The translations under genes and the position numbers were made by a program. Below the pieces are notes generated by a model. It saw nothing but the letters and a program-made list of their open reading frames with translations, was not told where the DNA came from and made no database searches. Shown here one piece after another: positions 10,704-44,901 of a stretch of 44,926 bases of DNA (position 1 is the stretch's first letter; the number at the start of each line of letters is the position of its first letter). This DNA is from Calidithermus chliarophilus DSM 9957. GTDB taxonomy: Bacteria; Deinococcota; Deinococci; Deinococcales; Thermaceae. Location of the stretch: positions 1,071,575-1,116,500 of the forward strand of contig NZ_KE387023.1 of assembly GCF_000430045.1 (NCBI RefSeq), read 5' to 3'.

Positions 10704-11717
10704 GTGGTCAACATCCACCTCTCCGCCGAGGACCTCGCCCGCGTCCGCTTCGCCTTCAGCACGCTGTGGGAGGCGGTGGCGAGCTACCGCGCCCTGCGCA
10801 GGCCGGAGAAGTACCCGCTGCACCTGCCCTGGATCCGCGAGGCCCGCGAGGCGCTGGCGGGGGCCGACCTGGGGCCGCTCGAGGCGCTGGTGATGATGGG
10901 GGGGTATCCCGACTTCCTGACCCCCCCACCCACCACGCCCCTGCCCGACTTCGCCGCCGAGGTCGAGCACCTGCTCCAGACCCCCCACGAGCTCGTCGCG
11001 CAGGACATCCGCAACGTCCTCGAGAGCTGGCCGCAGGCGGTTACCCCGGCGGTGCGCGAGGGCTTCGAGCCCTACCTGCGCGACCCCCGCGGCTCGCTCG
11101 AGCGCCTGGCCGACACCCTGCACTTCTACTGGGAGCGCACCCTGGCCCATCACTGGCCGCGCCTGCGCATCCTGCTCGAGGCCGACGTGATGTACCGCGC
11201 CCGCATCTTCGCCCTCGAGGGGCCGGAGAAGCTCTTCAACGAGCTCCACCCCGCCCTGCGCTACCAAAACCGCACCCTTCAGATCGTCAAGCACGGCTGG
11301 GACGCCGAGATTGACCTCTCGGGCCGCGGGCTGCTGCTGATCCCCTCGGTGTTCGCCGACCACACCCTCATGTTCGAGCCGCCCTGGCAGGAGACCCTAC
11401 AATACGGCGCTCGAGGCACCGCCGGGCTGTGGTGCCCCGAACCGCCCCCGGCGGCGGAGGCGCTGGAGAAGCTGCTGGGCCACAACCGCGCCCGCCTGCT
11501 CAAGTACCTGGTCACCCCCTCCACCACCCGCGAACTGGCCTACCTCTTCGACGTCAGCCCCAGCGCCATCTCGCAGCACCTGGGCTGGCTGCGCGAGACG
11601 GGCCTCGTCGCTACCCAGCGCCACGGCAAGAACGTGTTCTACAAGCTCAGCCCCATCGGGGAGAGCCTGCTCGAGGCGTACGGGGAGTTGGAGACGCCCC
11701 TGGCGCTGGTGATTTAA
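10704..11717 (+). CDS. ArsR-type regulator with long N-terminal domain (DUF5937-like)
   Basis: A 337-residue protein. Residues about 1-245 form a domain resembling DUF5937, rich in helices and aromatic residues, with no enzyme motif. Residues about 250-337 form a winged helix: LLKYLVTPSTTRELAYLFDVSPSAISQHLGWLRETGLVATQRHGKNVFYKLS (a recognition helix SAISQHLGWLRE followed by the wing) is clearly ArsR-like. It lacks the metal-binding cysteines of classical ArsR/SmtB proteins, so the signal is probably sensed by the N-terminal domain. The GTG start has GGAG just upstream, within the stop region of the preceding small gene. Function as a repressor is inferred from the family. Confidence 0.85.
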   Translation: MVNIHLSAEDLARVRFAFSTLWEAVASYRALRRPEKYPLHLPWIREAREALAGADLGPLEALVMMGGYPDFLTPPPTTPLPDFAAEVEHLLQTPHELVAQDIRNVLESWPQAVTPAVREGFEPYLRDPRGSLERLADTLHFYWERTLAHHWPRLRILLEADVMYRARIFALEGPEKLFNELHPALRYQNRTLQIVKHGWDAEIDLSGRGLLLIPSVFADHTLMFEPPWQETLQYGARGTAGLWCPEPPPAAEALEKLLGHNRARLLKYLVTPSTTRELAYLFDVSPSAISQHLGWLRETGLVATQRHGKNVFYKLSPIGESLLEAYGELETPLALVI

Positions 11718-27755: not shown

Positions 27756-27839
27756 GGCGTTCGGCTATCAGCTATCGGCTATGGGCTATCGGCTATCGAC
27801 CATCGGCTATCGACCATCGGCCATCGACCATCGACCCTC
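27756..27839 (+). repeat. Heptamer array E (12 units)
   Basis: GGCGTTC, GGCTATC, AGCTATC, GGCTATG, GGCTATC twice, GACCATC, GGCTATC, GACCATC, GGCCATC, GACCATC, GACCCTC, all in one phase and ending one base before the glycosyltransferase stop codon (minus strand). Confidence 0.88.
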
Positions 27840-41467: not shown

Positions 41468-42148
41468 TCAGGCCTCCAGCCGCCAGTCGATCTCGCCCCG
41501 CCCTGCCGCGCGCAGGGCGGCGTTGATCTTGGAGAAGGGCCTCGAGCCGAAGAAGCCGTTCTTGGCCGAGAGCGGGGAGGGGTGGGCCGACTGGATGACG
41601 CTGTGGCGGCGGGCGTCGATGAGCCCGAGCTTCTTCTGGGCGTGAGCGCCCCACAGCACGAAGACCACCGGCTCGGCCTTGGCGCTCACGGCGCGGATCA
41701 CCGCGTCGGTGAACTGCTCCCAGCCCTTGCCCTTGTGCGAGGCGGGCTCGTGGGCCCGCACGGTGAGCGAGGTGTTGAGCAGCAATACGCCCTGCTCGGC
41801 CCAGCGCTTGAGGTAGCCGGTCTTGGGGCGGGGGATGCCGAGGTCGGCCTCGAGCTCGCGGAAGATGTTGAGCAGGCTGGGCGGGGGCCGCACCCCGGGC
41901 CGCACGCTGAAGGCCAGCCCGTGGGCCTGCCCCTCGTCGTGGTAGGGGTCCTGCCCCACGACCAGCACCCGCACCTCGTCGTAGGGCGTGTAGCGCAGGG
42001 CGTTGAACACGTCCTCCTGCGGCGGGAAGACCTGGTGCTGGGCGCGCTCGGCCTCGAGGAAGGCCTCGAGCTTGTCCATGTAGGGCTTGTCGAACTCCTC
42101 CCGGAGGACGGGCTTCCAGGGGGGCGGGATCTGCTCGAGCAGGTTCAT
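41468..42148 (-). CDS. ung: Uracil-DNA glycosylase, family 1
   Basis: A 226-residue repair enzyme. VLVVGQDPYHDEGQAHGLAF holds the water-activating aspartate in GQDPYH, LLLNTSLTV is the uracil-recognition strand, and QSAHPSPLSA holds the catalytic histidine and the minor-groove loop. It removes uracil arising from cytosine deamination, a major lesion at high temperature. GGAGGAG lies before the ATG. Expressed from a promoter that carries a palindrome over its -10 box. Confidence 0.97.
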   Translation of the reverse strand: MNLLEQIPPPWKPVLREEFDKPYMDKLEAFLEAERAQHQVFPPQEDVFNALRYTPYDEVRVLVVGQDPYHDEGQAHGLAFSVRPGVRPPPSLLNIFRELEADLGIPRPKTGYLKRWAEQGVLLLNTSLTVRAHEPASHKGKGWEQFTDAVIRAVSAKAEPVVFVLWGAHAQKKLGLIDARRHSVIQSAHPSPLSAKNGFFGSRPFSKINAALRAAGRGEIDWRLEA

Positions 42149-42209: not shown

Positions 42210-42263
42210 GCGCGGGGCACTCTCAGGCGCCTCAAACCCGCCTCGAGCCCGGGGTCTGCTAAT

Positions 42264-42279
42264 ATAGGCATTGACCTAT
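42264..42279. promoter_or_regulatory. Operator O1 of the ArsR/AHSA1 locus
   Basis: ATAGGCA-tt-GACCTAT, a 16-bp dyad just after a TAATAT -10 box (42260-42265) and overlapping the regulator start codon; autorepression is likely. Confidence 0.6.
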
Positions 42280-43354
42280 GGACTCGCCGGATATCCTGAC
42301 CTTCAGCACGCCCAAGGTGGAGACGCCTTCGGTCGAGGCGATGCCCTCGCCCACCCTCGAGCTCGCCTACGTCTACTACGTGCTGAACCGTCCCGATAGC
42401 CAGCAGAAGGGCCGCGAGATGCCCTGGCTGGGCCTGCTCTACGAGCAACACCCCGAGCTCGTGGAGCGGGTCCGCACCTTCTGGCCCGAAGCGGAGCGCG
42501 ACTACGCCGGCTTCGACCTCTTCTGGCTCGTGGCCGACCTGGGCTACGCCCGCGACCCCAGCCCCCAGCGCCTGCTCGACGACCTCGCGAGGCTGCCGGG
42601 CCGCTTCGTCAAGCACCTCGAGGCCCAGCGCCGCAAGGTGCTCGCCGAGTGCACGGGCGACGAGGCGCGCCAGAAGAAGGAGACCAAGAAGTTCCAGGGG
42701 CCCCTCGACCGCTTCAACCGGCTCAAGCAGGGCAAGGAGATCCGCCGCTACACCCAGATGCTCGGCGACCTGTGGGCGGTGCTCGAGCCCCTGTGGCTGG
42801 GGGAGGGGCTGGAGGAGGCCCGCCGGGCGAGCGAGCTGTTCCAGGCCAAGTACCAGCACAGCGGGGACGTGCTCGAGGCCCTGCCGCCCCACCACTTCGT
42901 CCAGTTCGAGGCGGCGGTCGAGGAGATCCGGGCCTCCCAGAAGAAGGGCTCGCTGGTGGTGGTGCCGCTGTACTTCGCGCTGGGCGGGGGCTTCAACTTC
43001 GACATGGCCGACGCCCACTACATCGGCTACGGCATCCAGAGCGAGCGCTTCTACGAAGAGCTCAGCGCCCAGGTGGAGGCCAGCGCCGCGCACATGAAGG
43101 CCCTGGCCGACCCCACCCGCCTCATGCTCCTGACCCTCATCGCCCGCTACGAGAGCTTCGCCATGACCGTCAGCGACCTCGCCAAGCAGCTCGGGGTGAG
43201 CCAGCCCACCGCCAGCGGCCACCTCAAGCAGCTCAAGGAGGCGGGCCTGGTCAGCTTCGAGAAGCACGGCAACAAGACCCTCCACAAGGTCAACAGCGCG
43301 GCCTTGGAGGCCACCCTCGAGGGCCTGCGCAAGCTGCTGCTCCACCCTAAGTAG
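42278..43354 (+). CDS. ArsR-type regulator with long N-terminal domain
   Basis: A 358-residue protein. Residues about 20-255 form a helical domain of no family I recognise, with LELAYVYYVLNR, FDLFWLVADLGYA and a late strand pair VVVPLYFALGGGFNFD. Residues about 265-350 are an ArsR winged helix: MKALADPTRLMLLTLIARYES, then LAKQLGVSQPTASGHLKQLKEAGLVSFEKHGNKTLHKV. No metal-site cysteines are present. The dyad at 42264-42279 covers its start, and matching dyads precede the next two genes, so this protein is the best candidate for binding them. The architecture parallels the regulator at 10704, though the N-terminal domains do not look alike. Confidence 0.85.
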   Translation: MDSPDILTFSTPKVETPSVEAMPSPTLELAYVYYVLNRPDSQQKGREMPWLGLLYEQHPELVERVRTFWPEAERDYAGFDLFWLVADLGYARDPSPQRLLDDLARLPGRFVKHLEAQRRKVLAECTGDEARQKKETKKFQGPLDRFNRLKQGKEIRRYTQMLGDLWAVLEPLWLGEGLEEARRASELFQAKYQHSGDVLEALPPHHFVQFEAAVEEIRASQKKGSLVVVPLYFALGGGFNFDMADAHYIGYGIQSERFYEELSAQVEASAAHMKALADPTRLMLLTLIARYESFAMTVSDLAKQLGVSQPTASGHLKQLKEAGLVSFEKHGNKTLHKVNSAALEATLEGLRKLLLHPK

Positions 43355-43362
43355 ATAGCCTA

Positions 43363-43391
43363 TTGACAATATAGCCAACTGCCTATACACT
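43363..43391 (+). promoter_or_regulatory. Promoter of the 61-residue protein
   Basis: TTGACA (43363-43368) and TACACT (43386-43391) are exactly 17 bases apart, close to sigma-A consensus. The spacer is filled by operator O2. Confidence 0.75.
43371..43386. promoter_or_regulatory. Operator O2
   Basis: ATAGCCA-ac-TGCCTAT, a 16-bp dyad lying between the -35 and -10 boxes. An extra half-site-like ATAGCCTAT lies at 43355-43363. Confidence 0.65.
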
Positions 43392-43397
43392 CCTTTC

Positions 43398-43413
43398 ATA
43401 GGAGGTTGGCTAT
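43398..43413. promoter_or_regulatory. Operator O3
   Basis: ATAGGAG-gt-TGGCTAT, the same 16-bp plan, 27 bases downstream of O2. It includes the AGGAGG ribosome site and the start codon of the small gene. Confidence 0.55.
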
Positions 43414-43597
43414 GAAGTTTACGTACGACGTACTGCAAGCCAAGGCCAACGAGCACATCGCCCGGCTCCGCCAGGAGGCCGAGGTAGAGCGCTCGCTGCG
43501 GCAGAAAGTGAAGGAAGCTGTCCAGGTCCTGGCCTCTGCTCGTCGGCGCGAACGGCGCCAGCCCACCTCCGAAGCTCCCTCGCGGCGTTCCGCCTAG
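43412..43597 (+). CDS. Small basic helical protein
   Basis: A 61-residue protein with a strong AGGAGG site. The first 45 residues are predicted helix (LQAKANEHIARLRQEAEVERSLRQ, in part), the rest is a basic, disordered tail with RRRERRQ. No family is recognised. It shares an LRxEAExxR pattern with the 76-residue protein at 10466, which is also encoded beside an ArsR-type gene. It is under tight control by two operators and ends in a terminator, so it is made as its own transcript. Confidence 0.75.
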   Translation: MKFTYDVLQAKANEHIARLRQEAEVERSLRQKVKEAVQVLASARRRERRQPTSEAPSRRSA

Positions 43598-43614
43598 AGC
43601 CGAGCTGAGACGGA

Positions 43615-43653
43615 CCCGGTCAGAATTGAGCCTCCTGACCGGGCCTGTTTTTT
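43615..43653 (+). terminator. Intrinsic terminator after the small gene
   Basis: CCCGGTCAG (43615-43623) and CTGACCGGG (43635-43643) form a perfect 9-bp stem; six T follow at 43648-43653. Confidence 0.88.
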
Positions 43654-43669
43654 AATCCCGCACCCTTGT

Positions 43670-43685
43670 ATAGGCAAGTGGCAAT
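43670..43685. promoter_or_regulatory. Operator O4
   Basis: ATAGGCA-ag-TGGCAAT, one mismatch from a perfect dyad of the same plan, placed between the terminator and the fusion gene. The promoter itself is not clear. Confidence 0.55.
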
Positions 43686-43707: not shown

Positions 43708-44901
43708 ATGGCTGCCGAGACCCAGGCCCGCACCACCCTTACCCAGAGCGTTCAGGCCCCCCGCGCCTCCGTGTTCGAGGCCTTCACCACTGCCACGCGG
43801 CTGTGCGAGTGGTTCAGCTACGACGCGCAGCTCGAGGCCGCCCCCGGCGGGCGCTTCTACGCCTACTGGCGCGAGCCCGGCTTCTACGCGGTGGGGGAGT
43901 ACCTCGAGGTGCGGGCCCCCGAGCTCATCCGCCTGCGCTGGTCCGACAAGGACAACCCCCAGCCCGTCGAGGTCGAGATCGCCTTCGCCGAGTCGGAGGG
44001 CGGGACCGAGGTGAGCGTGCACCACCCCGCCATGCCGGCGGCGCTCGAGCCCCTGTGGCGGCGGGCGCTGGCGGTGCTCGCGAGCACCCAGGAGCGCGGC
44101 TACCACCTCGACCTGCTCGAGCGCCCCATGCTGGGGGTGCTGCTCAGCGGCGACGTCACCGCGGAGAACGCCGGGCAGTACGGGGTCCCGGTGGCCTACG
44201 GCGCGGCCTTGCAGGGCACGCTGGCGGGCCTGTCGGCCGAGGCCGCAGGCCTGCGGCAGGGCGACGTGATCGTGGGGATGGACGGCAAGGAGGTTCGCAC
44301 CGTGCAGGACATCCCGCCCATCACCCGCCAGCACAAGGCCGGGGACACCGTCGTGGTCGAGTTCTACCGGGGCGCCGAGCGGCACGCCGTGCCGATGGAG
44401 CTTCGGCCGCGCAACCTGCACCCCTACCCCGAGAGCCTGGAGGACCTGGCCCGCACGATGGCCCGCGAGAAGGAGCGGCTCATCGGCGAGCTGCGGGCCC
44501 TGCTGGCGGGCGCCACCGACGCCGAGGCCGAGCGGGCGCCCGCGCCGGGCAAGTGGAACGCCAAGCAGATCCTCGCCCACCTCGTCGCCAGCGAGCGGGA
44601 GAGCCAGGCCTTCATCGCCTCGCTGGCGGTGGGCAACGAGCTCGAGGTCTTTACCGCCAACCTCGACGCCCGTGTCAACGCCCTCGTCCGGCGCTACCCC
44701 ACCCTGGCCGCGCTGGTGCAGGCCCTCGAGGACGCCTACGCCGAGACGCTCGAGATCGTCCGGGGCCTCCCCCAGGACTTCTTAGCCCGCAAGGCCAGCG
44801 TGGTGCGGGTCCAGCTCGCCGCTGAGGCCGACCCCTTCCACGTGCGGCACCACTTCGGCCAGGTCCGGCGCGCGCTCGAGGCCGCCCGCCAGGCGGCGTA
44901 G
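43708..44901 (+). CDS. AHSA1/SRPBCC-PDZ-DinB fusion protein
   Basis: A 397-residue protein made of three domains. Residues about 8-130 form an AHSA1-type START-like domain (VQAPRASVFEAFTTATRLCEWF, then GGRFYAYWREPGFYAVGEYL and IRLRWSDKDNPQPVEVEIAF). Residues about 145-245 form a PDZ domain (AGLSAEAAGLRQGDVIVGMDGKEVRTV). Residues about 255-395 form a DinB-like four-helix bundle with APGKWNAKQILAHLVASE and HVRHHFGQVRRALEAARQ, keeping the histidines. I know of no described protein with this order. GGAGGAGG precedes the ATG. It should be cytoplasmic. Operator O4 places it under the ArsR-type regulator. Confidence 0.88.
   Translation: MAAETQARTTLTQSVQAPRASVFEAFTTATRLCEWFSYDAQLEAAPGGRFYAYWREPGFYAVGEYLEVRAPELIRLRWSDKDNPQPVEVEIAFAESEGGTEVSVHHPAMPAALEPLWRRALAVLASTQERGYHLDLLERPMLGVLLSGDVTAENAGQYGVPVAYGAALQGTLAGLSAEAAGLRQGDVIVGMDGKEVRTVQDIPPITRQHKAGDTVVVEFYRGAERHAVPMELRPRNLHPYPESLEDLARTMAREKERLIGELRALLAGATDAEAERAPAPGKWNAKQILAHLVASERESQAFIASLAVGNELEVFTANLDARVNALVRRYPTLAALVQALEDAYAETLEIVRGLPQDFLARKASVVRVQLAAEADPFHVRHHFGQVRRALEAARQAA

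Follow-up and report, generated by a model that had tools for sequence, protein, structure and literature searches.

Our analysis suggests that an ArsR-type regulator gene of Calidithermus chliarophilus and the small open reading frame (ORF) adjacent to it form a compact, self-contained module, in which the regulator would repress its own gene and the small ORF through palindromes at their starts. On comparative grounds we consider this reading likely. Conserved local ArsR regulons are a known kind of system; what is new here is the sensor domain, together with the tiny protein that the regulator is predicted to control. The locus lies near the right end of the window, which is the whole stretch of 44,926 nucleotides that was analysed, at G000:C3:1071575-1116500, and comprises the following features.

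42257–42265, + strand: extended −10 element TGCTAATAT of the regulator promoter (TGnTAnnnT), at the same position in 22 of 22 operator loci
42264–42279: predicted operator O1, ATAGGCATTGACCTAT, from −14 to +2 relative to the regulator ATG (42278), with conserved position and covarying arms
42278–43354, + strand: regulator of 358 aa, an N-terminal domain without known family plus an ArsR-type winged helix
42326–43063, + strand: N-terminal sensor-like domain of about 245 aa (residues 17–262), modelled with AlphaFold2
43088–43312, + strand: ArsR/SmtB winged helix-turn-helix, about residues 271–345
43355–43370: a fifth, degenerate dyad, ATAGCCTATTGACAAT, that covers the −35 box of the small-ORF promoter, with similar sites in most relatives
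43363–43391, + strand: small-ORF promoter, TTGACA (43363–43368), 17-bp spacer and TACACT (43386–43391), with 10 of 12 matches to consensus
43371–43386: predicted operator O2, ATAGCCAACTGCCTAT, between −35 and −10, its final base overlapping the −10 box
43398–43413: predicted operator O3, ATAGGAGGTTGGCTAT, across the Shine-Dalgarno sequence and the ATG of the small ORF
43412–43597, + strand: small ORF, 61 aa, basic, with counterparts in 22 loci
43615–43653, + strand: intrinsic terminator, 9-bp stem CCCGGTCAG/CTGACCGGG, 11-nt loop and T run
43670–43685: putative operator O4, ATAGGCAAGTGGCAAT, in the interval between terminator and fusion gene, 23–38 bp upstream of the fusion ATG (43708)
43708–44901, + strand: fusion protein of 397 aa with AHSA1/SRPBCC (residues 17–113), PDZ (177–228) and DinB_2 (259–385) domains

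The original prediction had proposed four dyads of the plan ATAGNCA-N2-TGNCTAT, and all four are present where it had put them, at 42264–42279, 43371–43386, 43398–43413 and 43670–43685. Their described settings hold as well: the regulator start, the −35/−10 spacer, the ribosome site of the small ORF and the region upstream of the fusion gene. The spacing of 27 bases between O2 and O3 is correct in the window and becomes 26 in the sister species (G001), whose genome was the only other one of the genus in the comparison. The plan itself is exact only in O2, whereas O1 and O3 carry two mismatches each and O4 carries one, and the count missed the fifth dyad (two mismatches). With up to two mismatches allowed, the plan has five matches in the 44.9-kb window, all inside the 1.4 kb from 42264 to 43685, where 100 shuffles of the sequence gave a mean of 0.18 and a maximum of 2. 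Sequences of relatives yield an improved consensus, AT(A/C)G-N8-C(T/G)AT, which three of the four noted sites fit; O4 is off by one base (CAAT) and is the weakest of the sites. The final two bases of the extended −10 of the regulator are the first two bases of O1. The pair TTGACA-17-TACACT is the sole promoter call in the region, its −35 box and spacing being kept in most relatives, and the promoter search of the region found no recognisable promoter beside O4.

Conservation of these sites was followed through 111 Deinococcota genomes. A search with the N-terminal domain alone recovered regulator orthologs at 28 full-length loci in 27 genomes, spread over Thermaceae, Trueperaceae and one further family, and a search from a four-row alignment returned seven related loci, all of them in Deinococcota. 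Directly behind the regulator, 22 of the 28 loci have an ORF of 26–67 aa. The regulator start region of these 22 loci reads TGnTAnnAT(A/C)GG-N6-CC(T/G)ATG at a constant position; the dyad corresponding to O1 is kept at −14 of the start codon in all of them and conforms to the strict consensus in 21. The small-ORF promoter of the relatives has TTGAC(A) and a dyad that reaches the −10, usually exactly 8 bp from the start of the −35, and 14 of the 22 have an O3-type dyad of strict consensus at −14 of the small ORF. An additional dyad lies near or upstream of the −35 in most loci; most relatives, for instance, carry a counterpart of the fifth dyad at small-ORF offsets of −54 to −71. O2 and the upstream sites are variable both in register and in quality, and O3 has been lost in genus g23. 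The six regulator orthologs of genus g20 have neither the dyad nor the small ORF. Altogether the start and promoter regions of the 22 loci, 3801 bp in sum, contain 59 strict dyads, against 0.52 in shuffles (maximum 3). The original prediction had named random occurrence of the dyad inside genes as an observation that would count against it; the 22 regulator ORFs (22.7 kb) contain no strict dyad, a result in favour of the prediction.

The two arms of the dyad change together. At the regulator start the arms are ATAG/CTAT in 9 loci, ATCG/CGAT in 11 and mixed in 2, the third base of each arm changing jointly. Among 20 distinct sequences, 92.5% of the cells are complementary and 14 cells are double-changed. 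None of 500 shuffles, which ignore the kinship of the sequences, reaches the observed level, and sliding of the arms abolishes the signal. Genus g18 contains both arm types (G053, G092 and G093 versus G091 and G094), and therefore the double change must have occurred more than once. The common base-pair position in 22 loci, the covariation of the arms and the enrichment of 59 over 0.5 argue for the proposed operators and for autoregulation.

A genome-wide search with the plan at two mismatches is swamped by 7-bp tandem repeats, which account for most of the near-matches, and stricter composite patterns were used. In each of six genomes ATAGG-N7-CTATG has two to four occurrences, most of them at the regulator locus, and TTGACA-N2-ATAG-N8-CTAT has its exact match at the regulator locus only, in the present genome (G000) and in G001, G044 and G068. 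Similarly, the matches of ATCGG-N6-CCGATG in each of seven Trueperaceae genomes include the regulator locus and few other places. Because the composite sites are nearly confined to the regulator locus, the regulon appears to be local, in line with the self-contained regulon that had been proposed. Several isolated candidates were rejected. Of the two other sites with a single mismatch in the genome, one is a 7-bp repeat upstream of a succinate-dehydrogenase-like gene; the other precedes a LysE-like gene by about 60 bp and has no other support. The palindrome ATCGGCAACCACCGATG upstream of an ABC-exporter-like gene (L187, G082:C235:1653-1669) is absent in relatives and probably due to chance, as is an additional palindrome in G083. 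Many Trueperaceae loci (L064, L067–L070, L072–L074 and L077) have a weaker dyad, for example ATCGGCGCACCGCGAT, about 170–370 bp behind the regulator stop. Its place ahead of the next gene is roughly constant, and that gene is a possible extra target; in G085 it looks by its sequence like a tldD-tldE peptidase pair.

The abundance of the tandem repeats raises the question of whether the sites are themselves their debris, with no regulatory role. The repeat family (ATAGCC-type units, ATAGCCN) is intergenic and scattered, at 27774–27810 of the window, at G000:C3:2546801 and in many other places, and it is indeed what most near-matches turn out to be. However, repeat debris would hardly stand at identical base-pair offsets in 22 loci from several families, the ATCG/CGAT versions are not built from the repeat, and the composite sites are specific to the locus, which makes this origin extremely improbable. 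Alternatively, the palindromes could act in RNA, as start-codon hairpins that hide the ribosome site. A start codon or a Shine-Dalgarno sequence is indeed covered by two of the sites. But O1 shares bases with the −10 through its left arm and O2 is placed ahead of the −10, so the transcript from the respective promoter would include neither, and it is in DNA that the dyad symmetry is needed. Moreover, folding of the RNA around O3 and around the regulator start gave values no better than those of shuffled sequence (z −0.96 and +1.18), and no Rfam family is found at the locus. We regard an action in RNA as very unlikely.

Two other explanations accept DNA operators. Another regulator could bind them while the ArsR protein only co-travels. 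Yet the dyad is found together with the small ORF and the regulator, and O1 sits on the regulator's own promoter; we consider a different binding protein very unlikely. Less remote, though still rather unlikely, is that the regulator binds the sites and activates, or switches between activation and repression. Conservation alone would give the same pattern for a repressor or an activator. The sites are multiple, some of them upstream of the −35 (small-ORF offsets −54 to −71), and Rv2034 of Mycobacterium tuberculosis has been described both as an auto-repressor and as a positive regulator of phoP (PMC3338718). Nevertheless, the most constant sites lie on the −10 and start (O1) and in the −35/−10 spacer (O2), where bound protein normally blocks polymerase, and the −35 boxes are near consensus. 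Repression by the ArsR-type protein remains our preferred reading. Site positions, conservation, covariation, locus specificity, gene linkage and the coding character of the small ORF are established by sequence.

The small ORF looks protein-coding. Its N-terminal motif is M....xLLxxxAxxRxxxLRxEA; the family, although variable in length, retains a pattern of the type M(L/F)xxPxLIxxxAxxRxxxLRR/LRQEA. Significant matches to the family in the 111 genomes are found beside the regulator only. Between the window and G001, two Calidithermus species, the pN/pS of the small ORF is 0.28 and that of the regulator 0.31; between some close Trueperaceae the small ORF has values of 0.6–0.85, computed from few sites. 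In locus L098 (G068:C396) a second similar small ORF (MNLNPILLKTVVDQHMTELL...) follows about 200 bp behind the first, with the dyad ATAGGAGAAGAACTATG across its ribosome site. The small ORF of the window is followed by the intrinsic terminator, whose fold has −26.9 kcal/mol (z −2.5) and whose stem is retained in G001 with altered base pairs.

Judged by its distribution, the conserved target of the predicted operators is the small ORF and not the fusion gene. The fusion protein (AHSA1 59.5 bits, DinB_2 39.8 bits) is present in 2 of the 111 Deinococcota genomes, G000 and G044, with 44% identity, both genes lying directly behind the small ORF; G001 is without it, through loss or because it was never present. 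G044 retains the histidines H291, H378 and H382 of the DinB domain, which have the arrangement of a DinB metal site. In the window the terminator separates the small ORF from the fusion gene. In G044 the fusion start overlaps the small-ORF stop, and the fusion gene should therefore share the operated promoter. The original prediction had counted the fusion gene in the regulon. O4 is indeed present upstream of it, but the site is the weakest one and the link is lineage-specific, limited to those two genomes; the fusion protein is, by this comparison, an occasional passenger of the module.

The regulator is assigned to the ArsR/SmtB family by its DNA-binding domain only, because no metal- or thiol-sensing cysteines (alpha3/alpha3N) are conserved. 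Its winged helix scores 51.7 bits against Pfam HTH_5 (cut-off 22) and 68.4 against NCBIfam HTH_metalloreg NF033788 (cut-off 55), and its best Foldseek matches are 6j05, 4omz and 1u2w (ArsR, NolR and CadC). As in members of that family, an inverted repeat lies over the gene's own promoter, as seen from the O1 sequence, its position at −14 and its overlap with the extended −10. The first 260 or so residues gave no match in Pfam or NCBIfam, a PDB sequence search with the N-terminal domain no match, and a Foldseek search of the PDB no solved fold relative (best E 0.9). The AlphaFold2 model of this domain, built with 25 sequences, has a mean pLDDT of 91.3 and a pTM of 0.90 and predicts a mostly helical fold followed by a small beta element. 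Its invariant residues (D93, R98, W166, H205, H206, F207, E211, P230, G237, G238, G250, G252 and E256) suggest a ligand site. No cysteine is found among the invariant or nearly invariant columns of the ortholog alignment, and a classical thiolate metal site is therefore unlikely. Plasmid matches in tblastn that reach residue 212 are plain short ArsR proteins, their extension being spurious.

The surroundings of the regulator differ among genomes. A uracil-DNA glycosylase gene (window 41468–42148) lies between an aminotransferase gene and the regulator and is missing at that place in C. roseus, so that this flank has been rearranged. In Trueperaceae (L043, L044, L045 and L092) a protein of about 100 aa with the motif RLSKTSEMS is encoded just upstream of the regulator, and in the g20 loci, which have no operator, the regulator stands directly behind it.

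From these observations we infer that the regulator binds the sites as a dimer and represses, that a ligand releases it, and that the fusion gene belongs to the regulon where it is present. A dimer would bind the 16–18-bp palindrome, with its AT(A/C)GG-N6-CC(T/G)AT core, through the C-terminal ArsR winged helix. Without signal, the protein would sit on O1 and so hide the extended −10, the start site of transcription and the ATG, and the gene would be autorepressed. The regulator −10 ends 12 bp before the ATG, which exceeds the 6–7 bp that usually separate the −10 motif from the ORF in leaderless genes of the phylum (PMC12340547), and hence a leader of about 5–6 nt must be assumed. Occupation of O2 in the −35/−10 spacer and of O3 at the start or initial transcribed region would repress the small protein. 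A ligand sensed by the N-terminal domain of about 245 aa may then release the DNA. In Calidithermus the terminator would end transcription of the small ORF, and an operated start of its own (O4) is probable for the fusion gene; in G044 the two are presumably co-transcribed. A bolder reading is that the N-terminal domain founds a new sensor class with the tiny basic protein as its dedicated output, itself a partner in signalling or feedback, for example as an anti-repressor that may bind the sensor domain, enzymes such as SRPBCC-PDZ-DinB being added in some lineages only. We hold this to be a tentative and on balance unlikely extension.

The closest described system is the Rv2034-Rv2035-Rv2036 set of M. 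tuberculosis, and the Calidithermus module appears to work like it, though it is not counted as a member. Rv2034 is an ArsR autorepressor whose footprint extends from −30 to +3 across its own start codon (PMC3338718); it is accompanied by a polyketide_cyc2 protein (SRPBCC-type) and a DinB-like, putatively thiol-dependent metalloenzyme (PMC3338718, PMC8562490). The resemblance lies in an ArsR regulator with linked SRPBCC and DinB types, fused here (G000 and G044), and in a predicted operator across the regulator's own start codon; the Rv2034 inverted repeat has a 4-bp spacer. In contrast to Rv2034, a short single-domain protein with the operator CCGTAAGT-N4-ACTTACGG, the present regulator has 358 aa, including a large extra N-terminal domain, and the operator AT(A/C)GG-N6-CC(T/G)AT. 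Furthermore, the regulator and the enzyme have a tiny protein encoded between them, and a single polypeptide with a PDZ domain combines SRPBCC and DinB.

The operators of classical ArsR/SmtB proteins are imperfect inverted repeats near the transcription start, of the 12-2-12 type (PMC8790569). Like ArsR, SmtB, CadC and AzuR, the regulator has a winged helix above the NCBIfam cut-off and an inverted-repeat operator near the transcription start. It differs from the classical metalloregulators in its length (358 aa versus about 100), in having no conserved cysteine and in its separate N-terminal domain, and no metal-transport or resistance gene lies nearby in the regulon. In size and layout it is like the DUF5937 regulators, in which a helical N-terminal domain of about 240 aa precedes the winged helix, a resemblance that hints at a possible relationship of its N-terminal domain to DUF5937. 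No Pfam DUF5937 match was found among 25 members of the regulator family at E≤10. Comparison with the DUF5937 profile by hhalign gave a score of 21.1, against 19.0 for the reversed profile, and a probability of 1.4%, no improvement on that control and no significant sequence match; the alignment is of low confidence and collinear from end to end. An ArsR regulator of the DUF5937 type (PF19361) is encoded at 10704–11717 of the window and is the only PF19361 match in the genome.

A literature search of incomplete coverage found no paper on the regulator, the operator or the small protein. Our study turns a sequence observation in one genome into a testable, phylogenetically conserved regulatory module, for which the 22 loci provide predictions of the sites and their quality at base resolution, together with a set of naturally occurring compensatory changes in the operators. 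It further points to a Deinococcota family of sensor domains not described before, modelled confidently and lacking a solved relative, as well as to an uncharacterised tiny protein that is the most conserved predicted target of the regulator. The ligand, if found, would tell what ArsR-SRPBCC-DinB gene sets such as Rv2034-2036, which are widespread and poorly understood, respond to.
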